Shown: positions 2,284 to 20,343 of the stretch, one piece after another
How the letters are laid out: every line of letters starts with the position of its first letter
How positions within the stretch are numbered: position 1 is the stretch's first letter
Position numbers and translations under genes: made by a program
From: Armatimonadota bacterium
Lineage (GTDB): Bacteria > Sysuimicrobiota > Sysuimicrobiia > Sysuimicrobiales > Humicultoraceae
DNA: 64,000 nucleotides
Direction: 5' to 3'
NCBI GenBank assembly: GCA_031081715.1
Contig: JAVHMA010000011.1
Location: forward strand, 1 to 64,000
Notes under the pieces: generated by a model
Database searches by the model: none
Told to the model about the DNA's origin: nothing
Seen by the model: the letters and a program-made list of their open reading frames with translations, nothing else

Positions 2284-5200
2284 GTGTTAGAAGATGCGTC
2301 GACGAGCTCGCTGAGCGTCCAGCTACTGGGCGGATTCCGCCTGACCAACCGAGACGGATCGGTCCGGCGCCTGGACTCCGCCCGCCTACAGTCCCTCCTT
2401 GCCTACCTGGTGCTCCATCGCGGTCCGCAGCCACGGTCGCGGCTCGCCGCGGTGTTCTGGCCGGAGTCGCCCGAGGGTCAGGCCCGCACCAATCTGCGCA
2501 AGCTCATCCTCGAGCTCCGGCGCGGCCTGCCCGAGGTAGACCGGTACGTGCTGGTCGACGAGCGTGCATTGCAGTGGCGCGGCGAGGGGGCGACGGTGGA
2601 TGTCGTCGAGTTCGAGCGGGCGCTCGAGGGCACGACGACGGTTGCCTCTCTGGAGCGCGCGATCGGGTTGTACCGCGGCGAGCTGCTTCCGGATTGCTAC
2701 GAGGACTGGGTCGTGGCGCCGCGGGAGCGCATCCGTCAGGCGTACATGGACGGCCTGGAGCGCTTGATCGCTGCGCTCGAGGCGCGGCGCGACTACGGGG
2801 CGGCGATCCGCCATGCCCGCGGGCTGCTCGACCTCGACCCGCTGCAGGAGCGGATCGCGCGGTTGCTCATGCGCCTGCACGCGCTGACCGGCGACCGCAC
2901 CGGCGCCGTCCGGGTCTATCACGCGTGCGCGAGCGTCCTCCAGCGCGAGCTTGGCACGGCGCCGAGTCTGGAGACACGGGAGGCCTATGAGCGGCTGTTG
3001 GCGGCCACGCACGTGCGGCCCGCCGCCCAGCCGCTCGCCGCGCCGCCGTTGGTGGGGCGCGACGCCGAGTGGGAGCGCCTGCAGGCCGCCTGGAGGACTG
3101 CGGCGGCCGGGAGGCCGCGGGTAGTGCTGCTGCGCGGCGAGGCCGGCATCGGGAAGTCGCGGCTGGCCGAAGACCTGCTCGAGTGGGCGGCGCGTCAGGG
3201 TTTCACCGTTCGCGCTGCGCGCTGCTACGCCGCCGAGGACGGGCTCGCCTACGCGCCCATCACGGCGTTGCTGCGGGCGCGGCCGATTCACTCCTCCACG
3301 CCCCTTGCCAGGCGCGAGCTCTCGCGGTTGCTCCCTGAGCTCCTGACCGATCCGGGGCTGTCGCCGCCCGGCCCGCTCTCGGAGGTCTGGCAGCGGCAGC
3401 ACCTGTTCGAAACCGTTGCGCAGGTTCTCCTGGCCGATCAGCCGGTGCTCGTCGTCATCGACGACTTCCAGTGGTGCGACGAGGAGAGTCTGGCGTTCCT
3501 GCACTACCTCAGCCACTGCGACCCGCACGCGCGGCTCCTGCTCGTCGGCGCGCTGCGCCCGGACGACATCGAGCGGGGGCACCCCCTCCAGCGCGTCCTG
3601 GCCTCCTGGCGCCACGCCGGGGTGGTGGACGAGATCGATCTCCGACCACTCGAGGAGGGACCGACCGAGCGATTGGCCGCGTCCGTCGTCGGGATGGCGC
3701 TGGACCGAGCCGCAGCAGCGCGCGTGTTCCGCGAGACCGGCGGCAACCCTCTGTTTGTCGTCGAGCTCGCGCGCGCCGGGCTCATCGGCGCGGACAACCC
3801 CTCGCCGCTGCCCCCGCAGATCCAGCAGGTCGTTCGCACGCGCCTCGAGCGCCTCTCACCCCCGGCGCACGACCTGGCCGCGGTCGCGGCCGTGGTCGGC
3901 CGGTCGTTCACCTTCGCGCTCCTCGCGGAGGTCACCGGCATGGAGGAAGACGCGCTCATCCGCGGCCTCGACGAGCTGTGGCAGCGTCGCATCATCCGCG
4001 AGCACGGCACCGACGCCTACGACTTCAGCCACGACCTGCTGCGTGACGCGGCGTACGCGGTGATGAGCGGGACGCGACGGCGGTGGCTGCACCGGCAGGT
4101 CGCCCGGGCGTTGGAGATCGCCGCCGCGGACGAGCCCGGCGAGGCCAGCGGGCAGATCGGCATGCACTACGAGCAGGCGGGCCTGGTGGACCGCGCGGTG
4201 CCGGCGTACATGCGGGCGGCCGACGCGGCGCGGCGCGTGTACGCGTACGAGGCTGCCCTCAACTACTATCACCGACTGCTCGCGCTGGAGGTCGGGGTCG
4301 ATCGCATCACGGTCATGTGCCGTATCGGTGAGATCTGGCAGCGGACCGGCCGATGGGCCGATGCGGAACACGTGTACCGGCAGGCCCTCATGGTGGCCAC
4401 GGAGGCTTCGGACGCCGAGGCGGAGGCCGAGTGCCAGCTCAGACTCGGGTTCATCCTGCGCCTGCGGGGCGCCTACGACGAGGCCGGCGCGTGGTTCGAG
4501 CGCGCGCAGGCCGCGTTCGAGCGGCTGGGCCTGGCGCGCGGCATCAGCCGCGCCACCGGGCACCTGGGCGTCGTCCACTTCGAACGGGCGGACTACGCCC
4601 TCGCGCTGACCTGCTTCGAGCGCCAGCGCGAGATCGCCGAGCGGCTGGGCGATACCGCGGAGGTCAGCAACGCGCTACGCGACACCGGGTTGGTCCACTG
4701 GGCCAGGGGTGACTACGCCCAGGCCCTGGAAGCGCACCGGCACCAGCTCGAGCTGGCGGTTGAGCGCGGCGAGGCCTTGGGGGTGGAGGGAATGAACGCC
4801 CTCAACAACCTGGGCCTGGTGTACCGGTCGATGGGCGACTACGCGCGCGCCATCGAGCACCACCGGAAGAGCCTGGAGATCGCCCGCAGGATCGGCGACC
4901 GCCGCGGTATCGCGGTCGCCCTGGGCAACATCGGCATCGACCGTGAGGAAGAGGGCGCCTACGCCCACGCCCTCGTGCACCTCATCCAGCAATACGAGAT
5001 CGCCTCGCAGATCGGCGACCCCCGCGGCCGGGGTCATGCCGTCTGGCACATCGGCAACGTCTGCGAGGCGCTCGGGCATGGGGCCGAGGCCCTGCGGTGC
5101 TTCACCGAGCAGCTACGCATCGGCCTGGCGATCAACGATCGGGTGGTCGCGGCCACGGCGCTCGCGAACGTGGCGCGCGTCTACGCCGCGCAGGCGCGCG

Positions 5201-5769
5201 GGGGCGAGGCCGAGCGGCTCTACCGGGCGAGCCTCGCACTGCTGGAGACTGCCGGTGTGCCGCACCACCAATGCGAGGTCCGCTACCGGCTCGCCGCCTT
5301 CTACGCGGAGGCGGGCCGGTACCGGGAAGCCCTCGACGCGGCGGCCGGGGCGCGTCACGTGGCGGCGCAGCTCAAACGGACGTCGATGCAGTTCGCTGCC
5401 GAGCGGCTCTGCGTCGAGGTGCGTCTCCGGTCAGGCGCGATCTCCGATGCGCAGGCGTGCGAGGAGCTGCGGGCGCTCCTGACCCGGTTTCCCGACGCGC
5501 GTAGCCATGCCGCCGTATCCTACGACCTGTGGCGCATCACGGCCGCCGAGGAGCATCGCCGCGCCGCGGTGGACCACTACCGACGCCTGGCTGCGGAGCA
5601 CGGGCGGGTCGAGTACCGCCGGAGGATCGAGGCGCTCACCGGGGAGCCACCGCCCGAGGCCCCGGCGCCATTACCGCTCCCCGCGGACCTGACGGGCGAG
5701 CCAGCGGACTTGGATGGGCTCCTCCGGGAGGTCGAGCGGCGGTTGCCGCAACTCACCGCGTCGTTGTAG
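2284..5769 (+). CDS. SARP/BTAD-AAA-TPR large transcriptional regulator
   Basis: About 1161 residues. The first 100 form a SARP winged-helix DNA-binding domain (start VQLLGGFRL, then FWPESPEGQARTNLRKLILELR). A bacterial transcriptional activation (BTAD) helical domain runs to about 250. A STAND/AAA ATPase follows, with Walker A GEAGIGKSRL and Walker B VLVVIDDFQWCDEESL. The last 500 residues are tetratricopeptide repeats, many with a GDYAxALxxxxxxLxIAxxxGD pattern. Such proteins are signal-integrating activators whose TPR part senses partner proteins or ligands. I chose GTG 2284, just after CGGAGCGG and directly before the conserved domain; an earlier TTG at 2215 adds a low-complexity leader. 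It lies upstream of the PrsW cluster on the same strand, so it could regulate it; that is inference only. Confidence 0.9.
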   Translation: MLEDASTSSLSVQLLGGFRLTNRDGSVRRLDSARLQSLLAYLVLHRGPQPRSRLAAVFWPESPEGQARTNLRKLILELRRGLPEVDRYVLVDERALQWRGEGATVDVVEFERALEGTTTVASLERAIGLYRGELLPDCYEDWVVAPRERIRQAYMDGLERLIAALEARRDYGAAIRHARGLLDLDPLQERIARLLMRLHALTGDRTGAVRVYHACASVLQRELGTAPSLETREAYERLLAATHVRPAAQPLAAPPLVGRDAEWERLQAAWRTAAAGRPRVVLLRGEAGIGKSRLAEDLLEWAARQGFTVRAARCYAAEDGLAYAPITALLRARPIHSSTPLARRELSRLLPELLTDPGLSPPGPLSEVWQRQHLFETVAQVLLADQPVLVVIDDFQWCDEESLAFLHYLSHCDPHARLLLVGALRPDDIERGHPLQRVLASWRHAGVVDEIDLRPLEEGPTERLAASVVGMALDRAAAARVFRETGGNPLFVVELARAGLIGADNPSPLPPQIQQVVRTRLERLSPPAHDLAAVAAVVGRSFTFALLAEVTGMEEDALIRGLDELWQRRIIREHGTDAYDFSHDLLRDAAYAVMSGTRRRWLHRQVARALEIAAADEPGEASGQIGMHYEQAGLVDRAVPAYMRAADAARRVYAYEAALNYYHRLLALEVGVDRITVMCRIGEIWQRTGRWADAEHVYRQALMVATEASDAEAEAECQLRLGFILRLRGAYDEAGAWFERAQAAFERLGLARGISRATGHLGVVHFERADYALALTCFERQREIAERLGDTAEVSNALRDTGLVHWARGDYAQALEAHRHQLELAVERGEALGVEGMNALNNLGLVYRSMGDYARAIEHHRKSLEIARRIGDRRGIAVALGNIGIDREEEGAYAHALVHLIQQYEIASQIGDPRGRGHAVWHIGNVCEALGHGAEALRCFTEQLRIGLAINDRVVAATALANVARVYAAQARGGEAERLYRASLALLETAGVPHHQCEVRYRLAAFYAEAGRYREALDAAAGARHVAAQLKRTSMQFAAERLCVEVRLRSGAISDAQACEELRALLTRFPDARSHAAVSYDLWRITAAEEHRRAAVDHYRRLAAEHGRVEYRRRIEALTGEPPPEAPAPLPLPADLTGEPADLDGLLREVERRLPQLTASL

Positions 5770-5811: not shown

Positions 5812-6402
5812 GTGCGCGGGTTCACACGCATCCTCTCGCTGGCATGGGTGCCGCTGGCGACCTCGGCGGTCTCCCTCGTCCTGTCCGTGAGCAGCATCGT
5901 CGTCTCGACCCGGGAGCCCGAGATCGTGCTGATCCTTCCCGACCAGGTGCGCGTGGCGCAAGGCGACGACTTCGGGTTCGCCTACATGTACGTCCAGCCG
6001 GCCTTCGTGAACACGGGCATCAACGACCGCGTGGAGGTCCTGCGCACGATGACGATCGAGGTTCAGGCGCCGGCCGGGGGCGGGCCCACCATTTTCGAGT
6101 GGGACGAGCGCGGCGAACTCGTCTACAACGCCGACGGCTCGCTGAGCTACCGCTACCTCGCCGACGCGGTGCCGCTCCTGGTCAGTCCCCGCGACGCGCA
6201 GGTGCCGTTCGCGGTCTTCAATGGCCCGAAGGGATGGTACTTCGGCGAGGGGACCTACCGCATGCGGCTGCTCGCGCATCGGGTGGTGAGCCGACGCCCG
6301 CTGGAGGGGACGTTCGAGATCACCTTCGCGCAGCGGGACGTTGACTTCCTGATCACCGGCCGCGGCCGCCGGTTCCTGACGTTTCCGTCGAGGAAGCTTT
6401 GA
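5812..6402 (+). CDS. single-pass membrane-anchored hypothetical protein
   Basis: 196 residues: a short basic N-terminus, one hydrophobic segment (about residues 8-30), then a beta-rich extracytoplasmic domain of about 165 residues with no recognised motif. The topology (N-in, one helix, sandwich-like domain) is shared with the products at 7504 and 9386 in the same cluster. The start is GTG 5812, 42 bases after the regulator stop, without a strong ribosome binding site. No enzyme motif is visible. It is the first gene of the plus-strand run that includes three PrsW-family proteins, so a role as envelope partner or substrate of those proteases is a hypothesis. Confidence 0.65.
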   Translation: MRGFTRILSLAWVPLATSAVSLVLSVSSIVVSTREPEIVLILPDQVRVAQGDDFGFAYMYVQPAFVNTGINDRVEVLRTMTIEVQAPAGGGPTIFEWDERGELVYNADGSLSYRYLADAVPLLVSPRDAQVPFAVFNGPKGWYFGEGTYRMRLLAHRVVSRRPLEGTFEITFAQRDVDFLITGRGRRFLTFPSRKL

Positions 6403-6529
6403 CGGGTGGCCCGCGGCCGGACGGGTCGGGGGAACGCCTGCGAAACGTCTGCCCCGTACCATGGGGTGCGTCGAGGCCCCGTGCCGCGCGACGGTGCCGG
6501 CGCGGGCGCCCGTCCGGCGAGGTGAGCCG

Positions 6530-7507
6530 ATGTCTGGAACCGGCCTTCTGGTCACCGCCGTGCTGGTCACGGTCGTGCCCGTCCTCATCTACCTCTGGAT
6601 CTTGTGGCGGGTGGATCGGTACGAGAAGGAACCGGTCACGCTGCTAGCCGTGGCGCTCGCGGGTGGGGCCGTGGTGGCGCCGCTGCTGACCGCCCTGGCC
6701 CAGAGCGTGCTGGGAATCCCCACCTCGATCTTCCCCGCGCTCTTCCAGATCTATCCGTTCGCCCATCCCAACCTGGCCGGGGCGGTTGTCGAGGAGCTCG
6801 CCAAGGGTGCCGTGATCCTCACGGTCTACGTCCTCGTGCCGCACGAGTTCGACAACACGCTCGACGGCGTCGTCTACGGCGCCACCGTCGGTGCCGGCTT
6901 CGCGCTCGCCGAGTCGGTGGTCTACCTGAGCGACTTGGCGTCGCTGGCCGCCGCGGCCAACCTCGAGGCCGGGTTTTTCGGTGCCATCCTGGTCTCAGGG
7001 CTCACCCACTGTGTCTTTGGTGCGATTTTCGGCGCGGCGCTCGGCTACGTGCGTGAGGCGTCGCCGTCAGGCGGCGCGCGGTGGTGGATTCCTATCGCCG
7101 GCCTGGCAGCGGCGGCCCTCTATCACGCCGGGTACGTCGCGGTGGGCGCAGCGGGCCTGGCGGGTGTGGGCGGGCTCACGGGCCTCCTGCTCGGCGTCGG
7201 CCGTCGCCTGGCGGACGTGGGTGGTCTGGTCCTGGTCGGCGTGATTGTGGCCTGGGCCTGGTCGCGCGAACGCGGCGTGCTGCGGTGGGCGCTCGCCACC
7301 GAGGCGCCGGAGGTGATCGCGCCCGACGAACTTGAGGCCCTGGCGCAGGGCCGCATGACCGGCGACCCGCGATTGCGCGAGGCGCTCGCCGAGCTGGCTT
7401 TCGCGAAGTGGCGGCTCGCGCGCGGGTTTGGCACGCAGGAGGGCGTCACGCGGCAGCGCGAGCGCGTCCGGCAGGTCCGCTTGGCACAGGGGGGGAGCCG
7501 CGGGTGA
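6530..7507 (+). CDS. PrsW family intramembrane metalloprotease (copy 1)
   Basis: 325 residues with about nine hydrophobic segments. PrsW hallmarks are all present: the N-terminal cytosolic motif DRYEKEP (29-35), the EExxK motif VVEELAK with glutamates 88 and 89, HEFDNTLDGVVYG (histidine 105), ALAES (glutamate 128) and GLTHCVFG (histidine 160). In Bacillus, PrsW cleaves a single-pass anti-sigma factor outside the membrane; family members are membrane-embedded zinc proteases. A cytosolic tail of about 75 charged residues follows the last helix and recurs in copy 2 (FxKWxxxRG pattern). ATG 6530 follows GGCGAGGTGAGCCG. The stop overlaps the next gene's GTG (GTGA). No sigma/anti-sigma pair is in the window, so the substrate is unknown. 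Confidence 0.88.
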   Translation: MSGTGLLVTAVLVTVVPVLIYLWILWRVDRYEKEPVTLLAVALAGGAVVAPLLTALAQSVLGIPTSIFPALFQIYPFAHPNLAGAVVEELAKGAVILTVYVLVPHEFDNTLDGVVYGATVGAGFALAESVVYLSDLASLAAAANLEAGFFGAILVSGLTHCVFGAIFGAALGYVREASPSGGARWWIPIAGLAAAALYHAGYVAVGAAGLAGVGGLTGLLLGVGRRLADVGGLVLVGVIVAWAWSRERGVLRWALATEAPEVIAPDELEALAQGRMTGDPRLREALAELAFAKWRLARGFGTQEGVTRQRERVRQVRLAQGGSRG

Positions 7508-8109
7508 GTGCGCCTCCGTCGCCCGGTCCGAATCGCACCCTGCTCTACGGCGTGGGCGCCGGGTGCGGCTGCCTGTCGCTCATCATCGGGATCGTCGCGG
7601 TCGTGCTGGTCGTTGGGGCGCTCTCCCGCGCCACGTCTGGCCCGTCTCCGCAGCCCGCACCGCAGCCCCAACCCGGCCCGGGGCCAATCCAGCCCCGGCC
7701 CCAGCCCCCCGAGCCCCAGCCCGGTGGTGACGTCGAGGGTACTGACGACCTCAAGATCGGCGGCGCGCATACGCTCCGGATCGTAGGGCAGCCGCCCAAC
7801 ATCACACCGGGCGAGCCGGCCACGACCTTCACGCGCGGCGAGGCGGTCGGGTTCCGCGGTGTCGTGGCCCTGATCCGGGGGACGCACGAAATCCGGATCC
7901 TCTGGGTGAAGCTCGAGGGCGGCACCCGCGTCACGCCGGTGGCTCAGGGCAAGTTCAGCTGGTCGGAGGCCACCCACCAGGGCAAGCCGTTCCTGGCCTT
8001 CGTCCACGGCACCGAGCAGGCCCCGCCGGGCGACTACGCGGTCGGCGTCATCAAAGTCGTCGGCGAGCAAAACGTCCTGATCGTCCGGCGCGGGTTCACG
8101 TTCCGGTAG
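7504..8109 (+). CDS. single-pass protein with proline-rich stalk
   Basis: 201 residues: a short N-terminus, one hydrophobic helix (about 13-38), a proline/glutamine-rich stalk (about 43-78) and a C-terminal beta-rich domain of about 120 residues. The start GTG overlaps the stop of PrsW copy 1 by GTGA, so translation is probably coupled and the two products are likely partners. A type II single-pass protein with an extended stalk is the shape of known site-1-cleaved membrane proteins, so it is a candidate PrsW substrate or adaptor. I recognise no family in the C-terminal domain. A conserved-looking pattern there includes an RIVGQPP motif and an ending FTFR. Confidence 0.65.
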   Translation: MSAPPSPGPNRTLLYGVGAGCGCLSLIIGIVAVVLVVGALSRATSGPSPQPAPQPQPGPGPIQPRPQPPEPQPGGDVEGTDDLKIGGAHTLRIVGQPPNITPGEPATTFTRGEAVGFRGVVALIRGTHEIRILWVKLEGGTRVTPVAQGKFSWSEATHQGKPFLAFVHGTEQAPPGDYAVGVIKVVGEQNVLIVRRGFTFR

Positions 8110-8144
8110 GCACGCGCCGCCCAGGTCGTCGGGAGGTGAGGACG

Positions 8145-9356
8145 GTGAGCCAATCGCGCGGGTCCGCGCTCCCCGAGATCGCGCTGCCCAAGGGCGACAT
8201 CTCGGACCGGGGGCTCCGCTACCTCATCATCGGAGGGTTCGGCCTGCTCTTCTTCCTGTTTGGCACGGCCACGCTGCTCTACTTCCTGGCTCGCGTGCCC
8301 TTCGGCGCCCTCGTGGTCTCGACCGTCGCGGCGGTGCTGCCGGTGCCGCTCTACGGAGCGCTGATCCTCTGGCTCGACCGGCACGAGAAGGAACCCGCGC
8401 TGCTGCTGGCGGCCGCGTTCTTCTGGGGCGCTGTCGTCGCGACGCTGGTCTCGCTGTTTCTGAACACCGGGGCGACGGTCGTCATCAACGCCATCCTCGG
8501 TCCCCGGTGGGCCGGGGCGCTGGGCGCCTCGATGGTCGCCCCGATCGTGGAGGAGACGTCCAAGGGCGCGGCGCTGCTGTTGCTCTTCTTCCTGGCGCGC
8601 CATGAGTTCAACAACGTCGTTGACGGCATCGTGTACGGCAGCCTCGTGGGGCTTGGCTTCGCGATGACCGAGAACATCCTGTACTTTTCCCGGGCGCACG
8701 CGGCCGGTGGGCTGGCGGGCGTTGGCATCTTGTTCCTCATGCGGGTCGTGCTCAGCGGGTTCAACCATTCGCTGTTCACCGGGGTGATCGGCGCCGGACT
8801 CGGGTACGCCCGCGAGGCGCCCGGCACGGTCGTCAAGGTCGCGGCGCCCGTCGCGGGCTACGTGGCTGGCATCATGCTGCACGCCCTGTGGAACGGCACC
8901 GCCGTGCTGCTGAATATCACGGGAATCCGTGTCGCGCCGGTCGTCCAGCTGCTCGTGATCGTGCCCGGCATGGCGCTGGTCCTGGCGCTGCCCGGACTCG
9001 CGACGCTTGTCTGGCTCGCCGCCGCCGGGTGGCGGCGGGAGGTGCGCATCATCAATGAGTTTCTGAAAGACGAAGTCAAGCGCAGGGTCGTCACCGAGGA
9101 CGAGCTGGAGACCCTGGGGAGTCCCCGCCGCCGCTTTGGGCGACTGATGCGGGCGCTGACGCAGCAGGGGCCACAAGCCTGGCTCGGGCTGCGCCAGCTC
9201 TACGAGCTCCAGGTAGATCTCGCCTTCCGCAAGTGGCATGCATCGCGGGGGGAGCGCCTGATGTCGTTCCAGCAGGTGATGACCGACGATGGGTACCGCG
9301 AGCGGATCGCGCAGATCCGAGAGCGACTGGCCGCGATGGGGGTCGAGACCGCTTGA
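8145..9356 (+). CDS. PrsW family intramembrane metalloprotease (copy 2)
   Basis: 403 residues, longer than copy 1 at the N-terminus (extra helix at about 25-48). The catalytic set is intact: LDRHEKEP at about 77-84, VEETSKG with glutamates 136-137, RHEFNNVVDGIVYG (histidine 153), AMTEN (glutamate 176) and GFNHSLFTG (histidine 208). A cytosolic tail of about 100 charged residues ends with an arginine-rich repeat similar to that of copy 1. The GTG at 8145 is preceded at good spacing by GGGAGGTGAGG, so I prefer it over the GTG at 8136. It lies 35 bases after the stalk protein and 29 bases before another stalk protein, so the locus alternates protease and stalk protein twice. Confidence 0.88.
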   Translation: MSQSRGSALPEIALPKGDISDRGLRYLIIGGFGLLFFLFGTATLLYFLARVPFGALVVSTVAAVLPVPLYGALILWLDRHEKEPALLLAAAFFWGAVVATLVSLFLNTGATVVINAILGPRWAGALGASMVAPIVEETSKGAALLLLFFLARHEFNNVVDGIVYGSLVGLGFAMTENILYFSRAHAAGGLAGVGILFLMRVVLSGFNHSLFTGVIGAGLGYAREAPGTVVKVAAPVAGYVAGIMLHALWNGTAVLLNITGIRVAPVVQLLVIVPGMALVLALPGLATLVWLAAAGWRREVRIINEFLKDEVKRRVVTEDELETLGSPRRRFGRLMRALTQQGPQAWLGLRQLYELQVDLAFRKWHASRGERLMSFQQVMTDDGYRERIAQIRERLAAMGVETA

Positions 9357-9385
9357 CGCCCCAACCGAGGAAGGAGCAGAGGCCG

Positions 9386-11026
9386 ATGTCCGAGCGGGGC
9401 GTGAGCACAGTCACCCTGGTAGTCGCGCTGGCGGTCGTGATGGTGTTCGTGCTGGCTGCCGCGGGCGTCGGGGCCTTCCTGATCGTGCGGAACCTCCCCG
9501 CGGCCAGACCAGCGGCCGCGCCGGTGCCGGTCCAGCCCAATCCGGCGCCGTCACCCGCTGGCCCGCCCGTGCAGCCACACCAGCCGGCACAGCCGCCCGC
9601 GCCGCCCGCGGCCGCGGACGCCGTCGCGCAGTTCGCGATCGCCGCGGTCTCGCCGACGGAGGTCGGGCCGAGCGAGCCGGTCAAGTTGAAGATGACGTTC
9701 GTGTTCAACGGCCGCGAGAAGACCAAGCTGCCGATGCAGCTGGCCTGGCGCGGCCCCGACAACGAGCTCACGTACGGCAAGGTCTACGAGGAGGACGTCT
9801 CGCCGGGGCCCAACACGAGTGAAGGCTGGAGCTTCCGCTCCGGGGCCACCGCGCTGGCCGGCACGCGCTTCAGGCTTTACGGCGTCGCCCGCGTGGATGG
9901 GAAGTCGTTCATCACGGAGTCGCCCGTCGTGGTGACGGTCACCGGGACGGGCGCGCAGCCGGCGCCTCCGTCTGGCGCCGAGGCGATCACGCAGTTCGCC
10001 ATCATCGCGGCGTCGCCCACCGAGGTCCCGCCGGGCGAGGCGGTCCGGTTCAGGATGACCTTCGTGTTCAACGGACGCGAGAAGACCAAGCTCCAGATGC
10101 AGCTAGCGTGGCGCAAGGGCGGCGGCGACCTCACGTACGGCAAGGTCTACGAGGAGGACATCTCGCCGGGGCCCAACACGAGCCAGGGGTGGAGTTTCCG
10201 CTCGGCGGCCGACACGCCCGCTGGGACGACCTTTCAGATCTTCGGTGTCATCCACGCCGGCGGGAAGACGTTCGTAACCGAAGCCCCTGCCGCCATGAGC
10301 GTGACCGGGGCGGCCGCGCAACCGGCACCTGCGCCGCAGCCGGGCCCCGGCCCGCTCCCGGCGCCGCAACCGGCGCCGGCGCCACAGCCAGCCCCGGCGC
10401 CGCAGCCAGCTCCTGCGCCACAACCTGCTCCTGCGCCACAGCCAGGGCCCGGCCCGCTCCCGGCGCCGCAACCCGTGCCCGGGATTCCGAGGACGGGTCC
10501 CCCGATCGATCCCGCGGTCGAGATGAACCAGTACACCGACCCCGGGCGGCGGTTCACGATGAACTACCCGGCCGGCTGGCGCGTCCAGACGATTGAGGGC
10601 GGGTTCGTCGCGTTCTTCAAAGACCATCCCGACGAGGGCACCAGCTTCCTGGTGCATCCCTGGGCCACCATGCAGGGTACGCAGGGAGGCCGCCAGGTAG
10701 CGCAGATGATGCTGAGGACGTTCCAGAGGCGCTATCCCGACGTCCAGGTCATCGGGCAGGACCACCGCGCCCTGGGCCAGGGCGGTGTGCGGGTCGATGT
10801 CGCGATTCTCGAGATCGTGTGGACGAACGTGCGCGGCGAGCGCATGCGCGGCCGCACGGCGATCGTCGCGGCGTTCGTCACGCTCCCGGGTATCCAGACC
10901 AACCAGACGACGATTCACTTCTGGCACTATCAGGCCCCCGAGGTTGCGTGGGAGGCTATGACCCCGGTGTTCACGCAGATGTACCAGAGCTACTCCGGGC
11001 TCGCATACGTGACGTCGCCGCCGTAG
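9386..11026 (+). CDS. membrane-anchored protein with two tandem domains, proline-rich stalk and PsbP-like C-terminus
   Basis: 546 residues. A hydrophobic helix at about 8-34 is followed by a proline-rich linker (36-75). Two copies of a domain of about 108 residues (80-187 and 199-309) follow, sharing MTFVFNGREKTKL, MQLAWR and LTYGKVYEED. Next is a PQPAPAPQ-type repeat (311-365), then a C-terminal domain (380-546) with the pattern DPGRRFTMNYPAGWR seen in PsbP/Mog1-fold-like extracytoplasmic proteins. ATG 9386 follows AGGAAGGAGCAGAGG. No catalytic motif is visible; it looks like an adhesive or sensory envelope protein. A related C-terminal domain occurs in the PrsW-like protein at 12407, tying the two together. 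The two repeats are very similar at DNA level. Confidence 0.75.
   Translation: MSERGVSTVTLVVALAVVMVFVLAAAGVGAFLIVRNLPAARPAAAPVPVQPNPAPSPAGPPVQPHQPAQPPAPPAAADAVAQFAIAAVSPTEVGPSEPVKLKMTFVFNGREKTKLPMQLAWRGPDNELTYGKVYEEDVSPGPNTSEGWSFRSGATALAGTRFRLYGVARVDGKSFITESPVVVTVTGTGAQPAPPSGAEAITQFAIIAASPTEVPPGEAVRFRMTFVFNGREKTKLQMQLAWRKGGGDLTYGKVYEEDISPGPNTSQGWSFRSAADTPAGTTFQIFGVIHAGGKTFVTEAPAAMSVTGAAAQPAPAPQPGPGPLPAPQPAPAPQPAPAPQPAPAPQPAPAPQPGPGPLPAPQPVPGIPRTGPPIDPAVEMNQYTDPGRRFTMNYPAGWRVQTIEGGFVAFFKDHPDEGTSFLVHPWATMQGTQGGRQVAQMMLRTFQRRYPDVQVIGQDHRALGQGGVRVDVAILEIVWTNVRGERMRGRTAIVAAFVTLPGIQTNQTTIHFWHYQAPEVAWEAMTPVFTQMYQSYSGLAYVTSPP
9689..10205 (+). repeat. intragenic tandem domain duplication (two arms)
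   Basis: Two arms of the gene at 9386 match closely at nucleotide level. A block around 9692-9732 recurs at about 10054-10094, and a block at about 9769-9832 recurs at about 10131-10194 with very few differences, including many identical third positions. The spacing of about 362 bases equals one domain plus linker. Flanking parts of the domains are more diverged, so the conserved blocks are either recent or maintained by gene conversion. Confidence 0.8.
10320..10480 (+). repeat. proline-rich low-complexity repeat in coding sequence
   Basis: In-frame tandem repeats encode PQPAPAPQPAPA units, bounded on each side by a PGPGPLPAPQP unit. At DNA level the units are GC-rich imperfect 6-12 base repeats (cagccagccccggcgccg type). 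They form the extended stalk between the tandem domains and the C-terminal domain of the host protein. Copy number may vary between strains. Confidence 0.8.
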
Positions 11027-11058
11027 GCGGACGCCAGCGCCGGGCGTGGGTGCGCCAT

Positions 11059-11244
11059 ATGGAGCGAGACGACGAACGAGGCCGGCCGGCGCAGCTGTTC
11101 ACCCTTCGGGTGTGGACCGAGGCGGTCGGCGAGAACAAGAAGGAGTGGCGCGGGAAGGTCCAACACATTCCGACCGGCGAGACCCGGTACTTCCGCAGCT
11201 GGGAGGCGCTGGTCGAGTTCCTGGAACGTTTGAGCCCCGCATGA
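11059..11244 (+). CDS. small hypothetical protein (61 residues)
   Basis: A 61-residue protein with a charged start (MERDDERGRP) and a compact core: FTLRVWTEAVGENKKEWRGK, then a TGETRYFRSWEALVEFLERL ending. The pattern (two beta strands with W and R, a TGExRxF turn, a C-terminal helix) looks like a genuine small conserved protein family, but I cannot name it. ATG 11059 is used; GTG 11047 in frame would add four residues. Its stop overlaps the next gene's ATG (ATGA), so it is translationally coupled to the exported protease. It has no signal peptide or membrane segment and is probably cytosolic. Confidence 0.65.
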   Translation: MERDDERGRPAQLFTLRVWTEAVGENKKEWRGKVQHIPTGETRYFRSWEALVEFLERLSPA

Positions 11245-12410
11245 TGCGGCGTGCGATGGTGCTCGCGCGCGCGGCCGTCCTGGCCGCCCTGCTTGTCGGT
11301 GCTGGCTCGCCTGCGTTGCACGCACAGATCTCGTCGGCCCTGATTGAGTACGGGCTGGCCCGCAGCGTGATGCTGGGCATTTTGGTCCGGGACACCCAGG
11401 GCGGCCTTCGGGAGATCTCTCACTGCTCCGCGTCGCTCGTCAGCCCGCGCGGGATGCTGCTGACTGCGTCGCACTGCGTGCGTGCCGACCAGGAGGTCGC
11501 CAGGTACGGTATCGGCAAGGGACAACTCTACAACGCCGAAGGCCTGGCGACGGTGTACCTGAACCTCCCCAATCAGGTCAGGCCGATCCTGATGCTGTTC
11601 GCCCGGCTGGTGGCGGACATCCGTGTGCCACTGGACCTGGCGCTGCTGCGCACGGACCGGTTGACCGGCTCGGCCGGCGAGCGGGCGCTCCCGCCGGACT
11701 TCAGTGTCCCCCACCTGGCGCTCGGCGATGGCGAGACAGTGCGGCACGGCGATCCCATCGTGCTGATCGGATTCCCCAGCGTCGGCGGTGACACCGTGAC
11801 GGTCGCGCGAGGTCACGTGACGGGCTTTACCGCGGACGCCGGTGGGCGGCGGATCGAGCTCAAGACCGACGTGGGCGCGCCCGGGTTCAGCGGGGCGCCG
11901 GTCATCAACGAGCGCGGCGAGCAGATCGCCGTGCACACGAGCTCGAGGGTCGAGGCCGATCGTGCCGCGCGCTCGGGCCGGGCGACGCTGCTCAGCCGGC
12001 TTCCGGCCGAGTGGAGCGCGCACCTGGGGGTGCAGGCGCAGGCGACGCCACAGCAGTCCGCTGGCGGGCCGCTGCCACCGGGCGGCACGTCCCCCGTGTT
12101 CCTGCAGGGCCGGGTCGCGGACGCCAGCCTGGGCATTCCCGTCGCCGGCGCGAGCCTCTGGGTGCTGGCGCCCGGCACCGCGTTCGGGGACGCCACCAAC
12201 GAGAGTGTCGTGGCGTCGGCTCTCACGGACGCCGCCGGCGCGTTCGTCACGCGGCCGGCCGTCGCGCGCGGCTTCACCTATCCCATCGTCGTGATGGCCG
12301 TCGGCTACCGTCGTCTGAACGGGTTCGTGAGCGTTCCTGCCGCGTCGCCGGGCGGCGTGGGGACGAACCAGGTATTCGCGGCGGGTACCATCGCCCTGGC
12401 CCGCCAGTGA
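11241..12410 (+). CDS. exported trypsin-like serine protease with carboxypeptidase-regulatory-like tail
   Basis: 389 residues. A signal peptide of about 28 residues (MMRRAMVLARAAVLAALLVG, cleavage near ALHAQ) precedes a chymotrypsin-fold domain. The triad is visible: LTASHCV (His78), VPLDLALL (Asp132) and GAPGFSGAPV (Ser217; the usual GNSGGP reads GFSGAP). Residues of about 285-389 form a domain like carboxypeptidase-regulatory (CarboxypepD_reg) units, with GRVADASLGIPVAGASLWV and later DAAGAFVTRP. No PDZ domain is present, so it is not a standard DegP. The ATG overlaps the upstream stop and its own stop overlaps the next GTG. It sits inside the PrsW cluster, so a proteolytic cascade across the envelope is conceivable. 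Confidence 0.8.
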   Translation: MMRRAMVLARAAVLAALLVGAGSPALHAQISSALIEYGLARSVMLGILVRDTQGGLREISHCSASLVSPRGMLLTASHCVRADQEVARYGIGKGQLYNAEGLATVYLNLPNQVRPILMLFARLVADIRVPLDLALLRTDRLTGSAGERALPPDFSVPHLALGDGETVRHGDPIVLIGFPSVGGDTVTVARGHVTGFTADAGGRRIELKTDVGAPGFSGAPVINERGEQIAVHTSSRVEADRAARSGRATLLSRLPAEWSAHLGVQAQATPQQSAGGPLPPGGTSPVFLQGRVADASLGIPVAGASLWVLAPGTAFGDATNESVVASALTDAAGAFVTRPAVARGFTYPIVVMAVGYRRLNGFVSVPAASPGGVGTNQVFAAGTIALARQ

Positions 12411-13807
12411 CGGTGCGCCGCAGTGTCTGGGTCGCACAGCCGCTAGCCATCGCGGCGCTGATTCTCTACGTCCTGGCGGTCGCGGCCCTCGCGCCGGCGC
12501 TGCAGGAGGTCGCGCGTGCAGCGCCGGCCATGGTTGGCGCGCTCCTGGCCCTCGCGCCGGCGCTGCTGTGGTTCGTCCTGTTCTACGTGCAAGACCACCG
12601 CGAGCCCGAGCCGCTGGTGTACGTGCTCCGCGTCGGCGCTGCTGGCGCGGTTCTCGCGGCTGGCGTCGCGATGCCGGTCATGCACCGAACGTCGGTTTCC
12701 ACCGTCCTGGCCACGGCTGATCCGCTCGCCGCCGTGGCGGTGGCCGTGCTGCTGGTCGGGGCGCTCCAGCAGTTCTGCCTCTACCTGGCCGTGCGCTACC
12801 TGGTCGTGGATGTGCCCGAGTTCGACGAGGTCGCCGACGGGTTCGTCTACGGCACCGCCGCCGGGCTGGGGCTGGCCACGGCGCTCACCCTCGACGTCGT
12901 GGCGCGAGGTGGGGGCCTCGATCCTGTGCCGGCCGCGCTGGCCGCGGTCGTGACCGCGCTCGCCCTGGCAGCCTCCGGCGGTGTACTCGGATACTGGATG
13001 GGCCGCGCGAAGCTGCGAGGGGAGCCCTTCGCCGCGTCGACCGGCTTCCTGCTCTCCGCCATGCTGAATGGGATCGTGGCCTACGCGCTCCGCGAGGTAT
13101 CCTATGCGGGTCTCACGCACCGCCCGTGGACCGGCCTGGTCGTCGCCGCGGCGGTCGCCGGGGCGGTCACGGTGGTGCTGTTCCGCGCCGTGCGAGCGGC
13201 GGGTCCGGAAGCGGTGCAGGGGGCGGATGTGGATGCGCACCCGCCCGAGGCGGGCCGCGCGGCCCCCTTTGTGTGGATGACGGTCGCCGTGATGGTGGGC
13301 GCCGGGTGGGCGCTGGCCGGCGCGGTCGAGGCGCGGACCGTCTTATTCGCCGATCCGCAGGGGCCGCTTCGCCTGCGGTACCCGGCCGCCTGGTTCGCGG
13401 TGCCCGGCTCGCCGAACCTGCTCGAGGTGCAGGATCCGCTTTCGGGCGCCGCGTTCCCCGCCGGGCTGATCGTGACGCGCGAGCCGAGGCCACCGGACCG
13501 AACCCTCGATCAGATCGTTCGGGACGGCGTGCTGGCCCGCGTGGAGCGGCTGGCGATGTACCGCGTGCTGCGTGAGCGGCCGGTGCGGGTCGCGGGGCAG
13601 GAGAGCGTTGCCGTCGAGTACGCGTTCGTGGCCGATCCGCACCACGCGGTCGTCGCAGCCGAGCGGGTACCGGTGGTCGTGTGGGGCAAGGAGGTCGTCG
13701 TGCCCGCCGGAGGTGTCGTCTACCGCATCGACCTGCGCGCGGTCGTCCACCAGGAGGATCGCGCGCGCATGCTGCTGACCCGCGTCCTGCGCACGGCACA
13801 GTTTTGA
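12407..13807 (+). CDS. catalytically degenerate PrsW homologue with extracytoplasmic C-terminal domain
   Basis: 466 residues. The membrane part (about 1-310) aligns with PrsW: DHREPEP (63-69) matches the D-x-x-EKEP motif and PEFDEVADGFVYG matches HEFDNxxDGxVYG. Every catalytic position is changed: the EE pair is Gln121-Gln122 (GALQQFCLYLA), the HEF histidine is Pro, the following glutamate is Leu, and no later membrane histidine is apparent. After the last helix, residues of about 315-466 form a domain starting DPQGPLRLRYPAAW, related in pattern to the C-terminal domain of the protein at 9386. It is therefore probably a pseudoprotease, perhaps a scaffold or sensor for the two active copies. 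The start GTG overlaps the upstream stop (GTGA). Confidence 0.75.
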   Translation: MTVRRSVWVAQPLAIAALILYVLAVAALAPALQEVARAAPAMVGALLALAPALLWFVLFYVQDHREPEPLVYVLRVGAAGAVLAAGVAMPVMHRTSVSTVLATADPLAAVAVAVLLVGALQQFCLYLAVRYLVVDVPEFDEVADGFVYGTAAGLGLATALTLDVVARGGGLDPVPAALAAVVTALALAASGGVLGYWMGRAKLRGEPFAASTGFLLSAMLNGIVAYALREVSYAGLTHRPWTGLVVAAAVAGAVTVVLFRAVRAAGPEAVQGADVDAHPPEAGRAAPFVWMTVAVMVGAGWALAGAVEARTVLFADPQGPLRLRYPAAWFAVPGSPNLLEVQDPLSGAAFPAGLIVTREPRPPDRTLDQIVRDGVLARVERLAMYRVLRERPVRVAGQESVAVEYAFVADPHHAVVAAERVPVVVWGKEVVVPAGGVVYRIDLRAVVHQEDRARMLLTRVLRTAQF

Positions 13808-13826
13808 GACCCGGCGTCCTACCCAC

Positions 13827-15713
13827 GTGCTGCCCCGGCTGATCGGTCGGGTGCTTGCGCCGGCGGAGCATCTCCAGCCGCTCCTCGCCGCGTACGTCCG
13901 CTTCCAGTACACTGACGGCTACCTCAAGCTCTTCAAGCATGTGCGCACGCTCCCGCGTGCCGACGCGCGGGTCGCGACGGCCGGTCTGCTGGGCGCCGCC
14001 GTGGCGACCGGTGCGACGCCGCTCCTCTCGACCCTGGGGCAGCAACTGCCTGTGATCCCCTTCGAGGACGTGGCGGGCGTGATGCGGTCCGTGCCGGCGC
14101 CCGCGTTCGCGCTCGCGCTCGCCACTTTCGTGGTGGGGCTCGGGTTCCTCGTGGTCGGTGCGGCGCTCGGTCCGGGCGCGCTCTGGATCGTGGTCGCCCT
14201 CCAGTACGTCTACCAGGCCGTGCTCATCGGGCTCGCCGCGGGACGTACCTGGCTCCATGTGGTGCCACTCGCGCTGCCCGTGGCGGTCGGCGCGCTGACC
14301 CCCGGCCACCGCCCCTGGGCGCAGGTGGCGGTCGCGGTGATCGTCGCCAGTATCGCGGTCCGGCTGAGCCCGCTCCCGGCGGCGTGGCGCGCGTCGTGGT
14401 ATCTGTTGTGGCCGCCGGCCGCGGCCGTCTTCGTCGGCCTGTATGTGGTCCTCGCGCGCCGGCCATGGTCCGTCGCGGGGGCCCGCCTGGGCCTGGCCGT
14501 GGGCGGCACGATCGTCTACCTGGCGGCGACCGGCTACGGCCGCAGTCCACGCGCGCTGGCCGAGGCGTTCCACGTCGTGCTGAACAACAGTATCACCCTG
14601 CTCGAGTTGACATGGTTCCTGCTGGGCGTCTCATTCGTGGCCGGGGCCATCGCGCTGGGGCAGTTCGCCGCGCGAGCGCTCCGTCACCTCGCGCCCGCGC
14701 CGGTGCCGCTGTGGGGGCTGGTCGCAGGCTGGAGCGCGGTCGTGGCATGGCTCGCGGTGCCCGAGGGTGGGGTCGGAGCCCCTGGCGCGGCCTGGGAGCT
14801 CGTGGCCGTCGGGCTTGGCCTGGCGGTCCTCGCCGCGCGCTGGCGGATGCGTGGTATGACGCGCGAGTGGTTGACAGGATGGATCGTCGCGACGGTCGCC
14901 GTGATCGGTGTGGTGCATGCGGCCTTACGCATCGACGTCGCCGAGGTCATCACGCGCGAGGCCGGGCTGCTGAGCATCGCGGGGTTCACGTACGCGGTCG
15001 TCTGGGAGATCGCCAGCCGCGTTCCCGAGGTCCCTCTCGCGACGCCGCGGTTCGGCCGGCCGTCGCCGCTCCTGCTCTATCTCGGCGTGACGCTGGTGGT
15101 CGGCGCTGCGGCGCTGTTCGGCCTGTCGGCGAACCTCAAGTTCTTCCAGCAGGTGGTCGTCCTGTCCCAATACCGCGGAGCACTCGCGTTGTGGATGGCG
15201 GTCGGCCTGCGCGAGCTGTTGCTTGCCTGGCCGGCGTTCTCGGCCGACGCCCACCGCAAGGCGGTAGACGCCTTCCTTGGCGGCGCGCTCCTCGCCGTGC
15301 CCGTCTTCCTCCTGCGGGCCGCGGCCGGAGAGCCCGCCGGGCACACTGGCGCAGTGGCAGCCGTGCTGGCCGGCGCAACGCTGGCGGCCATGCGGGGGCC
15401 CGAGGCGGGCCGCCCGTTCTTAGCGGCGGTCGTCGGCCTCGCCGCGGCGCTGGGGTTCGCCGCCAGCCTGTCGTCGCGAGTGCTCGTCGCGCTGGCGCAC
15501 CCGCTGCTGTACATGCTCTCGGCGCTGGGCGGCCCGCTCGCGCTGCGGCGGGCCGCGGACGTGATCTTCGCCTGGCAGAACGACATCCCATGGCGACCGG
15601 CGGACCAGTGGCTGTACTACGGGGTCGTCCCGGCGCTGGCAGCGTCGTGCGCCGCGACCGTGGCCTGGTTGCGCGGCCGCTGGGCGGCGGCGCCAGCCCC
15701 GGGCGGCGTGTGA
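13827..15713 (+). CDS. large polytopic membrane protein of unknown function
   Basis: 628 residues with about sixteen hydrophobic helices and short loops. The first 50 residues are amphipathic and carry YVRFQYTDGYLKLFKHVRTL. A long run of helix pairs follows, with a conserved-looking LNNSITLLELTWFLLG stretch near the middle and ANLKFFQQVVVLSQYRGAL in the third quarter. I recognise no transporter or enzyme signature. GTG 13827 starts 20 bases after the PrsW-like gene, so it is in the same transcription unit. The N-terminal soluble segment followed by many helices could suit a channel or scaffold, but nothing in the sequence decides it. Confidence 0.7.
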   Translation: MLPRLIGRVLAPAEHLQPLLAAYVRFQYTDGYLKLFKHVRTLPRADARVATAGLLGAAVATGATPLLSTLGQQLPVIPFEDVAGVMRSVPAPAFALALATFVVGLGFLVVGAALGPGALWIVVALQYVYQAVLIGLAAGRTWLHVVPLALPVAVGALTPGHRPWAQVAVAVIVASIAVRLSPLPAAWRASWYLLWPPAAAVFVGLYVVLARRPWSVAGARLGLAVGGTIVYLAATGYGRSPRALAEAFHVVLNNSITLLELTWFLLGVSFVAGAIALGQFAARALRHLAPAPVPLWGLVAGWSAVVAWLAVPEGGVGAPGAAWELVAVGLGLAVLAARWRMRGMTREWLTGWIVATVAVIGVVHAALRIDVAEVITREAGLLSIAGFTYAVVWEIASRVPEVPLATPRFGRPSPLLLYLGVTLVVGAAALFGLSANLKFFQQVVVLSQYRGALALWMAVGLRELLLAWPAFSADAHRKAVDAFLGGALLAVPVFLLRAAAGEPAGHTGAVAAVLAGATLAAMRGPEAGRPFLAAVVGLAAALGFAASLSSRVLVALAHPLLYMLSALGGPLALRRAADVIFAWQNDIPWRPADQWLYYGVVPALAASCAATVAWLRGRWAAAPAPGGV

Positions 15714-15729
15714 GGGAGGGGGAGGAGAC

Positions 15730-16266
15730 GTGAACCGGTCACTCGCGTACCCGACCGCGGTGCTCGCCGCGGTCCTGGCGTGCGCGCTCGCAGCAGCAGC
15801 CGCGCCCGTGCCGTCACCGTCACCCGACCCGCGGATCGCGGAGATCCGGCGGCGGATCGAGCACCTCGGGCTACGCGTGACCGACGCCGGCCACGCGCCC
15901 GCTACTTCGTCGGCGCCCCCCGTCTGGCTGGCGATCACGCCGGCGCAGTACCGCGAGCCGAGCTGGGCCCGCGTCACGGATCAGGCGCTCACCGTCTGGG
16001 CTGTCATGTTCCACGTGCTCAAGAGCGCACCGGATCGGACGCTGCTCATCTCGGCGCAGGACTGGCGGACGTTCCGGCTGTTCGTCTCGACGCCGTTCGG
16101 GAGCGTCGCGGCGTTCGATCGCGGCGTGCGCACCGCGCGTACGGACACCGACCGTCAGAAGACCCACGAGGCGCTCTACGCGGGCGCCACGCTGCGCGTC
16201 TTTGACCTGCGCCAGGAGAAGTGGCTCGAGACGACCGAGTTCGTCAGGCAGTGGTTCACGAAGTAG
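15730..16266 (+). CDS. small exported protein of unknown function
   Basis: 178 residues. GTG 15730 follows GAGGGAGGGGGAGGAGAC, one of the best ribosome binding sites in the region. A signal peptide of about 25 residues ends in an alanine run (ALAAAAAPV); a cysteine at 18 is not in a clear lipobox. The mature part (about 150 residues) has alternating helices and strands (RIAEIRRRIEHLG, then a VWAVMFHVLKSAPD helix) and no known motif. It is the last gene of the plus-strand cluster and converges on the MATE gene. A stand-alone periplasmic partner of the polytopic protein upstream is the simplest reading. Confidence 0.7.
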   Translation: MNRSLAYPTAVLAAVLACALAAAAAPVPSPSPDPRIAEIRRRIEHLGLRVTDAGHAPATSSAPPVWLAITPAQYREPSWARVTDQALTVWAVMFHVLKSAPDRTLLISAQDWRTFRLFVSTPFGSVAAFDRGVRTARTDTDRQKTHEALYAGATLRVFDLRQEKWLETTEFVRQWFTK

Positions 16267-16287: not shown

Positions 16288-17697
16288 CTACGTGAGCCGG
16301 CCGCCCGTCAGGTCGATCCGCCGCCACGCGCCGCTGTTGAAGCGCAGCGCCAGGACCACGGCCAGCAGAGCCAGGTAGGCGACCAGCCACAGCGTGGCGG
16401 CGGTGTAGCCGCCGCCGAGCACCCGCAGCGAGACGTACGTGCCCGGGACGAAGATCGCCCACGCGATCGCCACGCGCGCCCACATGGGAAACGCCGTGTC
16501 ACCGGCGGCGCGCAGCGCCTCCGACAGGGTCATCCCGACCGAGTCGAAGAGCTGCCACCCTGCGGACAGCATCAGCACGCCGGTGCCGATCGCGAGCAGC
16601 TCCGGTGTGGCCACGCGGCCGTCCACGAACGGCGCCATGAACAGCCCCGGGGCCAGCAGGTAGCCGAGGCCGACCGTGCCCTGCCAGGCGCCGGCCACGC
16701 CCGCCGTCAGTCGCACAATTTGCGGCACCGTCCGGTACTGCTGCGCGCCGAGCGCCTGACCGACCAGGATCGCGCCCGCGCTCGCAATGCCGAACGCCGG
16801 CATGAACGAGACCGCGTTGATCTGGATGACGATCATCAGCGCGGCCAGCGTCGTGGTGCCGAGCCCGGCCACCAGCACGTTGATGAAGAAGCTGAACGCC
16901 AGGAACTCGACGAACCAGTTCACGCCGACGGGAAACCCGAAGCGCAGCGTGCGGCCAAACTCCGCCCAGACCAGGTGGATGCGGGTGGCCACGCGCGGCG
17001 TGCCCACGCCGCCGAGGAAGAGGCCGAGGAACAGCGCGAACCCGGCGGCGGTGGCCAGCGCGCTCGCCAGCGCGGCGCCGCGCACGCCCAGCGCCGGCGC
17101 GCCCAGGTGGCCGTAGATGAAGACCCAGTTGCCGAAGACGTTGAGCGCCATCGCGCTCAGGCTTACCGCCATTGGCAGCCGCGTGTTGCCGAGCCCGCCG
17201 TAGTAAGCGGCGAGGGCCTCGATGCCGATCGCGGCCCCGCCGGTCAGCAGTCTGATCTGCAGGTAGCCGCTCATCAGTCGGTAGACCTCGCCGCGGTAGC
17301 CGATCGCCTGCAGCGCGCCCGGTACCCCGGCGATCGCCGCCAGGCAGGCGGCCTGCGCGAGCAGCGCCACGCCGAGCCCGTACCACCCGTACCGCCGCGC
17401 ACCGGCCGGATCGCCCTCGCCCGTGAACTGCGACGAGAAGCTCGCGACGATGAACACCAGCCCCATGGGCAGGATGAGCAGGTTGAACGCATTCGCGGCA
17501 CCGGTCGTGGTGGCCGCGATGGCGACCTCGCCCAGGTGGGCCACCATGATCGCGTCGGTGACGCCGACGACCACCTGGCTGGCGCGCGAGATGACCACGG
17601 GCCAGGCGAGGCGGACGAGGCCGCGCACGGTGGGCGCGGGCACGGCCGCGTCGGCCGGGGGCGTGTGGGCGCTGTCGCGCATGACGGTTGCGTCCAT
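16288..17697 (-). CDS. MATE family multidrug/metabolite exporter
   Basis: 469 residues with twelve predicted helices in two six-helix halves, the normal MATE size. The first helices read VRLAWPVVISRASQVVVGVTDAIMVAHLG, the typical family N-terminus, followed by VFIVASFSSQFTGEGDP. MATE proteins export cationic or organic compounds using a sodium or proton gradient; the substrate cannot be inferred. ATG 17697 is the annotated start, with ATG 17682 as an alternative. It is downstream of the prepilin operon on the same strand, separated by about 180 bases that carry an inverted repeat. Confidence 0.92.
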   Translation of the reverse strand: MDATVMRDSAHTPPADAAVPAPTVRGLVRLAWPVVISRASQVVVGVTDAIMVAHLGEVAIAATTTGAANAFNLLILPMGLVFIVASFSSQFTGEGDPAGARRYGWYGLGVALLAQAACLAAIAGVPGALQAIGYRGEVYRLMSGYLQIRLLTGGAAIGIEALAAYYGGLGNTRLPMAVSLSAMALNVFGNWVFIYGHLGAPALGVRGAALASALATAAGFALFLGLFLGGVGTPRVATRIHLVWAEFGRTLRFGFPVGVNWFVEFLAFSFFINVLVAGLGTTTLAALMIVIQINAVSFMPAFGIASAGAILVGQALGAQQYRTVPQIVRLTAGVAGAWQGTVGLGYLLAPGLFMAPFVDGRVATPELLAIGTGVLMLSAGWQLFDSVGMTLSEALRAAGDTAFPMWARVAIAWAIFVPGTYVSLRVLGGGYTAATLWLVAYLALLAVVLALRFNSGAWRRIDLTGGRLT

Positions 17698-19687: not shown

Positions 19688-19703
19688 ATCCCTCCCGGCT
19701 CCC

Positions 19704-20321
19704 TCAGCCCCCGTAGTTCCTGACGATCGCGTCCATGGTGATGGTTAGGTCGCCGGCATCCAGCGCGCCCGATCGGTTGGAGTCGATCCGCAGCGTGACG
19801 CGCACCCGGGCGATGCCCGGACGCTGCTGGGCGGTCAGCGGCAGCGGCGCGAGCGCGCTCTGTCGACCGTCGTAGTAGGCGAACTGCAGGGCCAGAACCC
19901 GCGGCGGGCGCAGGCCACGGGAGGTGACGGGCGCGCCCGTGGCGGTCGTGCACCCCGGGGAGATGGCGCCGGTCTCCACCCGGACGACGCCCTCCGTGGG
20001 CTCCAGGCAGAAGCGGTGCCACTCGGGCGTGCCGTCGCCGTCGACGTCGGCCAGGAACGCCATCGAGGAGGCGGCGGCCTCGCCGAAGTACTCGGCCGTG
20101 GACGTCACGTTGAAGCCGGCCAGGCGGATCCGGCGCACCATCCACTCCAGGACGAGGCGCGCGTTCTGCTGCTCGTCCGCAAGATCGCGCCCAGCGATCC
20201 ACGCCCGGAACGTCGCGGAGAAGACGTACGAGCCGGCCAGTGCGACGACCGCGAAGAGCGAGAGGGCGACGAGCACCTCGAGGACCGTCGCCCCACGCTG
20301 GGTGCCCCGGACGGCTCGCAT
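19704..20321 (-). CDS. PilW-like prepilin
   Basis: 205 residues. A short leader with RGATVLEVLVALSLFAVVALAGSYVF is a type IV prepilin N-terminus (G before the processed residue, glutamate at +5 of the mature helix). The rest fits PilW-like minor pilins: an ARLVLEWMVRRIRLAGFN helix, then beta strands ending with a calcium-like D-rich turn (DSNRSGALDAGDLTITMD). Minor pilins prime pilus assembly or form the tip complex. ATG 20321 is 22 bases from the upstream gene. An extended upstream frame reading to 20552 is a shadow of the neighbouring gene. Confidence 0.85.
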   Translation of the reverse strand: MRAVRGTQRGATVLEVLVALSLFAVVALAGSYVFSATFRAWIAGRDLADEQQNARLVLEWMVRRIRLAGFNVTSTAEYFGEAAASSMAFLADVDGDGTPEWHRFCLEPTEGVVRVETGAISPGCTTATGAPVTSRGLRPPRVLALQFAYYDGRQSALAPLPLTAQQRPGIARVRVTLRIDSNRSGALDAGDLTITMDAIVRNYGG

Positions 20322-20343
20322 CGTCCCCGCTCTCGACCCCGCT

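Follow-up and report, generated by a model that had tools for sequence, protein, structure and literature searches.

An operon joining active PrsW proteases and single-pass partner proteins to a trypsin-like protease and a degenerate PrsW: a candidate cell-envelope protease machine in an Armatimonadota bacterium

A close-packed run of ten genes in the genome of an Armatimonadota bacterium looks like an undescribed cell-envelope protease machine. As judged from comparison with other genomes, the operon consists of two conserved modules that have been joined: a core (module A) in which genes for active-type PrsW intramembrane proteases alternate with genes for single-pass membrane proteins, here called stalks, and a pair (module B) that couples a trypsin-like exported protease with a catalytically dead PrsW (pseudo-PrsW). 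The reading that we favour, with slightly less than even confidence, is that of a BTAD-controlled envelope proteolysis operon in which PrsW cuts its partner stalks and the dead PrsW scaffolds the trypsin-like protease. Physical pairing, stalk cleavage, the scaffold role and the control of the operon by the BTAD protein are what we infer from sequence.

Results

The gene set

The window, i.e. the whole stretch of 64,000 nucleotides that was analysed, belongs to a high-GC draft genome of 3.0 Mb in 49 contigs (G000). Open reading frame listing and codon-based gene calling placed ten genes on the plus strand at 5812-16266. A preliminary description of the locus had located these genes correctly but counted nine, missing the 61-aa gene at 11059-11244; the overlaps that it reported at 7504, 11241 and 12407 are present, each of 4 bp, and so is the SARP-type regulator gene that it placed directly upstream. 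The features are as follows.

2284-5769 (+): BTAD (SARP-type) + AAA_16 + TPR transcriptional regulator, 1161-1184 aa (BTAD 69 bits, AAA_16 88 bits, TPR_12 129 bits)
5812-6402 (+): 196-aa protein with a single N-terminal hydrophobic segment and no family (gene calling, profile search)
6530-7507 (+): PrsW1, active-type intramembrane glutamyl protease with a C-terminal tail (PF13367 88 bits; motifs; tree)
7504-8109 (+): stalk1, single-pass, with a Pro-rich linker and an outer domain of ~110 aa (alignment; overlap with PrsW1)
7561-7575 (+): codons of the GCGCL motif of stalk1 (alignment)
8145-9356 (+): PrsW2, active-type, with a C-terminal tail of ~120 aa (PF13367 165 bits; motifs)
9386-11026 (+): stalk2, single-pass, with two ~110-aa repeats, a Pro-rich linker and a C-terminal PsbP-like domain (sequence comparison)
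10511-11017 (+): PsbP-like (Mog1/PsbP fold) domain of stalk2 (PsbP profile; kept in relatives)
11059-11244 (+): 61-aa cytosolic protein (relatives adjoin BTAD regulators)
11241-12410 (+): exported trypsin-like serine protease with a Pro-rich linker and a C-terminal carboxypeptidase-regulatory-like domain (Trypsin_2 63 bits; triad H78/D132/S217)
12407-13807 (+): pseudo-PrsW with a PsbP/DcrB-like domain, 13304-13807, fused at its C-terminus (catalytic residues lost; orthologues in G004 and G015; own clade; hhalign)
13827-15713 (+): 628-aa polytopic membrane protein without a family assignment (homologue adjoining a BTAD gene in G001; distant likeness to a protein of relatives)
15730-16266 (+): 178-aa exported protein (homologue in G020)

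Two active-type PrsW and one dead lineage

The EExxK and conserved His motifs are regarded as catalytic features of PrsW (PMC4602095). PrsW1 and PrsW2 both exceed the Pfam gathering cut-off of PF13367 (23.5 bits), and in the alignment EExxK, the TM3 Glu and the conserved His residues are all present, the motifs being EELAK, FALAE, THC and YHAGY in PrsW1, and EETSK, FAMTEN, NHS and LHALWN in PrsW2. The third protein falls below the cut-offs of both PF13367 (20.8 bits) and the NCBIfam PrsW profile, which nevertheless still matches it (53 bits); QQFCL stands in place of EExxK (EE to QQ), and the TM3 Glu and both His are absent. The preliminary description, with two active PrsW and a pseudo-PrsW, was therefore right on both counts.

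The relatives of the pseudo-PrsW in two other genomes read QEFAK (G004) and AETFAN (G015), with one His each; all three lack the last His as well as the TM3 Glu. Because the three form a clade of their own in the tree (100/99), apart from PrsW1 and PrsW2, the dead form is old and maintained, and the pseudo-PrsW is a separate ancient lineage with an outer domain rather than a decayed copy of a neighbouring PrsW.

The PrsW/stalk core in other genomes

PrsW is present in 72 of the 386 genomes sampled; the phylum set comprises 43 genomes. Several PrsW genes within 10 kb were found in only six of the 386, namely the window genome and five genomes of one family of the same phylum (f4; G018, G021, G024, G027 = JAVKKH010000013 and G030 = CALIMJ010000027), plus a fragmentary case on contig C497 of G015. 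Since all six carry the stalk1 family, chance gathering does not explain the clustered PrsW. Matches to stalk1 with E < 1e-10 are confined, within the sample, to the same six genomes; weak matches occur in G015 and G077, and near-threshold ones in three other genomes of the phylum.

The order BTAD-PrsW1-stalk1-PrsW2-stalk2 is common to the window genome and the five f4 genomes. The f4 clusters read BTAD - small 3-TM protein - PrsW1 - stalk1 - PrsW2 - stalk2 - PrsW2' - stalk2', some of them adding a PrsW2'' or a second stalk1, and carry the 3-TM protein (117 aa) at the position of the 196-aa protein of the window. Identity to the f4 proteins is 45-51% for PrsW1, which groups with f4 PrsW1 in the tree, and 42-47% for PrsW2; the f4 PrsW2 proteins form three clades, with extra stalk copies alongside. 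The 4-bp overlap of PrsW1 and stalk1 is kept in all six genomes. As the core order is kept in f4, the arrangement looks like a real cell-envelope protease machine and not a chance gathering, and that PrsW and stalks belong together is well supported by these sequence comparisons. DUF3137 proteins, a possible accessory part, are found among f4 PrsW/stalk genes (L041:15123-16265, L041:16796-17758, L102:8135-9247).

The preliminary description had treated scattered homologues as the outcome that would speak against a common system, and had named a shared order of PrsW, stalk and pseudo-PrsW as the check. The PrsW/stalk order proved conserved in the five f4 genomes, while the pseudo-PrsW belongs, in relatives, to a separate module. 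Its pairing of each PrsW with a single-pass protein holds in the window, where one follows each active PrsW, and generally in the five relatives, where the last PrsW2 copy does not always have a stalk next to it. Outside the phylum, a Cys-motif scan of the 1.5 kb around each of 23 PrsW genes revealed no stalks of this kind, and a search for carriage on plasmids gave weak PrsW matches at most.

The stalk proteins

Both stalks possess a single hydrophobic segment at the N-terminus, as expected of the single-pass proteins first described, and cytosolic tails of ~10-20 aa, because of which they cannot be anti-sigma factors. It is conceivable that signal peptidase could remove the hydrophobic segments, which would then not serve as anchors. 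In stalk1 the segment is headed by GCGCL, whose residues G-C-G-C-L are invariant in the alignment of eight sequences; the outer domain is probably all-beta (low-confidence model, pLDDT 47). Between the window protein and the first f4 copies, the N-terminus and membrane segment have 16-18 of 31 residues identical and the outer domain 33-35 of 116-118 (28-30%), and this stronger conservation of the membrane segment is what would be expected if PrsW reads it. The possibility that GCGCL is a genome-wide sorting tag was considered and rejected: its DNA pattern is no more frequent than in controls, and none of the other matches in the 30 loci examined heads a membrane segment. The motif is a feature of the stalk1 family.

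The C-terminal domain of stalk2, when scanned alone, matches PsbP with 24.2 bits (cut-off 23.5), and it is conserved in the f4 stalk2 copies. The two ~110-aa repeats, closely similar to each other, are absent from the f4 stalk2 proteins.

The trypsin/pseudo-PrsW module

The exported trypsin-like protease of the preliminary description was borne out by the Trypsin_2 match, and its His, Asp and Ser are kept in aligned relatives. The pseudo-PrsW has orthologues in G004 (47% identity) and G015 (41% and 44%, in two pieces), and the two genes adjoin in all three genomes. In G004 their order is reversed with respect to the window and they overlap again by 4 bp, so that the two opposite arrangements have the same overlap. 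In G015, trypsin genes flank both sides, and the PrsW-like and outer-domain parts lie in separate reading frames, a split that is either genuine or due to misassembly. Close trypsin homologues (E < 1e-30) were found only beside a pseudo-PrsW. That the two proteins belong together is accordingly well supported, as far as sequence and gene order can indicate. No intact PrsW/stalk core was seen next to the pair in G004 or G015, and the full gene set was seen in the window genome only; of the one system proposed earlier, both the core and the trypsin/pseudo-PrsW pair are conserved, each as a module of its own, and the single conserved block is not.

The two modules share a domain type. The likeness between the outer domain of the pseudo-PrsW and the PsbP-like domain of stalk2 emerged first from weak Pfam matches, and was later supported by profile comparison (hhalign probability 79.5, P 1.5e-5, 146 columns). 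A model of the pseudo-PrsW core, which leaves the outer domain outside, has pLDDT mostly 70-88 and pTM 0.51. In Foldseek, its best PDB matches are APH-1 from gamma-secretase structures (prob 0.99, TM by target 0.52-0.56, with a weak E of ~0.1) and chain 6 of 7tm3, probably TMEM147. An active PrsW would probably match APH-1 as well, being of the same superfamily; PrsW, CAAX proteases and APH-1 have been united in one superfamily (PMC4602095 and references therein).

Association with BTAD regulators

In nine loci, PrsW has a BTAD gene no more than 5 kb away; uniform placement would give 0.24, and the neighbourhood is therefore meaningful. The nine loci amount to about five lineages (f4, G000, G001, G004 and G020), as five of them come from the related f4 genomes. 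The BTAD protein of the window has no clear membrane anchor, and a consensus promoter scan found no promoter. A different type of PrsW operon was also observed beside BTAD regulators in G001, G004 and G020, consisting of PrsW and a 2-TM protein of ~97 aa, with a ~280-aa protein in two of them (L103:8630-10664, L107:8332-9980, L108:6150-7322).

Discussion

Proposed working

In the proposed scheme, the BTAD regulator would control the operon, and each active PrsW would be paired with a dedicated single-pass partner that is co-translated or encoded by the next gene: stalk1, with its GCGCL-headed membrane segment, or stalk2, with its PsbP-like outer domain. That the PrsW enzymes act on, or with, these dedicated partners is the most likely interpretation of the sequence data. 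PrsW would recognize the partner through the membrane segment and then cut it, so that the outer domain is freed or remodelled upon an envelope condition. The dead PrsW is most simply viewed as a membrane scaffold, as APH-1 is in gamma-secretase, that would position the serine protease or the protein on which it acts, possibly the released stalks.

While cutting guided by the membrane segment seems most likely, its main rival is a lasting complex in which the stalks, like nicastrin, are permanent subunits that gate substrate access to PrsW and remain uncut. We consider this somewhat unlikely, but it would account for the PrsW1/stalk1 overlap kept in every cluster and for the resemblance of the modelled pseudo-PrsW to APH-1, its nearest solved fold. 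Moreover, in the window and in G004 a PrsW that is unable to cut forms one chain with a stalk2-related outer domain, a fusion that fits a stable partner as well as a substrate. Against it, GCGCL, invariant and rich in Cys, lies where stalk1 meets the membrane and resembles a recognition signature, and myxosortase, a protease of related fold, requires an invariant Cys beside the membrane segment of its substrates (PMC11980579).

Classical regulated intramembrane proteolysis, in which a sensor stalk, once cleaved, would inform the BTAD regulator or some distant sigma factor, is suggested by the excess of BTAD genes near PrsW and by the founding PrsW, which performs the site-1 cleavage of RsiW (PMC4602095). 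It appears quite unlikely, however, considering that Pfam and NCBIfam matched no sigma or anti-sigma family among the ten proteins, in line with the preliminary description, and that the BTAD protein seems not to be membrane-anchored; a regulator would not fit into the short inner tails of the stalks, which makes anti-sigma control by the operon unlikely in particular.

That the locus is a loose gathering of membrane-protein genes, with no joint function and kept by the shared ancestry of the genomes, is improbable: most genomes of the window's own family lack the cluster, and only about seven genomes carry it, but the order is conserved at 42-51% protein identity, the PrsW1/stalk1 overlap has persisted, PrsW and stalks have multiplied jointly, and the trypsin/pseudo-PrsW pair has been rearranged with its overlap kept. 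A defence or toxin role was rejected, since no toxin family was matched in Pfam or NCBIfam and PADLOC gave weak RT-protease and generic TPR matches.

Comparison with known systems

The PrsW of Bacillus subtilis (PF13367, NF033739), the site-1 protease of RsiW, belongs to the same protease family, with EExxK and the conserved His. The present operon differs from it in having several PrsW with dedicated single-pass neighbours and no RsiW or sigma factor; none of the ten proteins is a linked anti-sigma substrate of the RsiW type with a cytosolic sigma-binding domain. With 51 bits against NF033739 (equivalog cut-off 225), the operon PrsW are not the same orthologue. The earlier view of PrsW as a lone protease of an anti-sigma factor was too narrow, because PrsW has also been found joined in one chain to toxin and signalling domains (PMC3482391). 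Those fusions likewise place PrsW outside anti-sigma control and tie it to a partner domain; here, in contrast, there is no toxin or immunity domain, the partners are separate, single-pass and beta or PsbP-like, and the fused PrsW is the dead one.

Myxosortase MrtX and its MYXO-CTERM substrates (PMC11980579) offer another parallel, that of a related-fold intramembrane protease with dedicated substrates marked by an invariant Cys beside the membrane segment. MrtX is a CPBP protein, however, and not a PrsW, its tag is C-terminal and not N-terminal, and it has dozens of substrates instead of one or two neighbours. A literature search, of incomplete coverage, for PrsW genes clustered with those of membrane partners returned nothing closer than the RsiW, toxin and signalling cases (PMC3482391, PMC4602095).

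A further parallel is the design of APH-1 and nicastrin in gamma-secretase, where a CAAX protease/PrsW superfamily protein without catalytic function has a single-pass partner with a large outer domain; here, a putative association is indicated by gene fusion and neighbourhood. The operon is bacterial, its outer domain is PsbP-like and fused, and there is no presenilin, so the relation is one of analogy and not of membership. A bacterial multi-subunit intramembrane protease complex of active PrsW, single-pass partners, dead PrsW scaffold and exported serine protease, as an independent counterpart of that design, is an unlikely, more far-reaching reading. For APH-1, an evolutionary step from protease to scaffold has been proposed, and the conserved dead PrsW with its outer domain would, if it is a scaffold, be a bacterial example of it. 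More generally, PrsW is widespread and few of its substrates are known, RsiW being the one established in the literature consulted; a conserved operon of PrsW and single-pass proteins provides direct, testable partner candidates.

Other genes of the operon and its surroundings

The 61-aa protein may be a small companion of the BTAD regulator class: in six of the eight other phylum genomes with a match, a BTAD gene lies within 6 kb. The 628-aa product is polytopic, as described before, and a homologue adjoins a BTAD gene in G001. Its distant homology to a 625-aa polytopic protein of f4 is tentative, hhalign giving a non-significant probability of 3 and pairwise comparison z values of 2.3 to 5.8 in 10/10 cases (for decoys, -1.2 to 0.9 with the f4 protein and no more than 1.4 with the window protein). 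The f4 protein adjoins a BTAD gene and a second, partly degenerate PrsW, which mostly keeps E/D-E-xxK and has lost the TM3 Glu; PrsW and 625-aa protein lie on the opposite strand (L039:3286-6023 (-), likewise L040, L041, L042 and L043). A homologue of the 178-aa exported protein (E 8e-25) is encoded by the first gene of another PrsW operon in G020, divergent from a BTAD gene. Convergent to the operon are a MATE-family transporter gene (16288-17697, -) and a run of genes with pilin-like N-termini (17879-21362, -).
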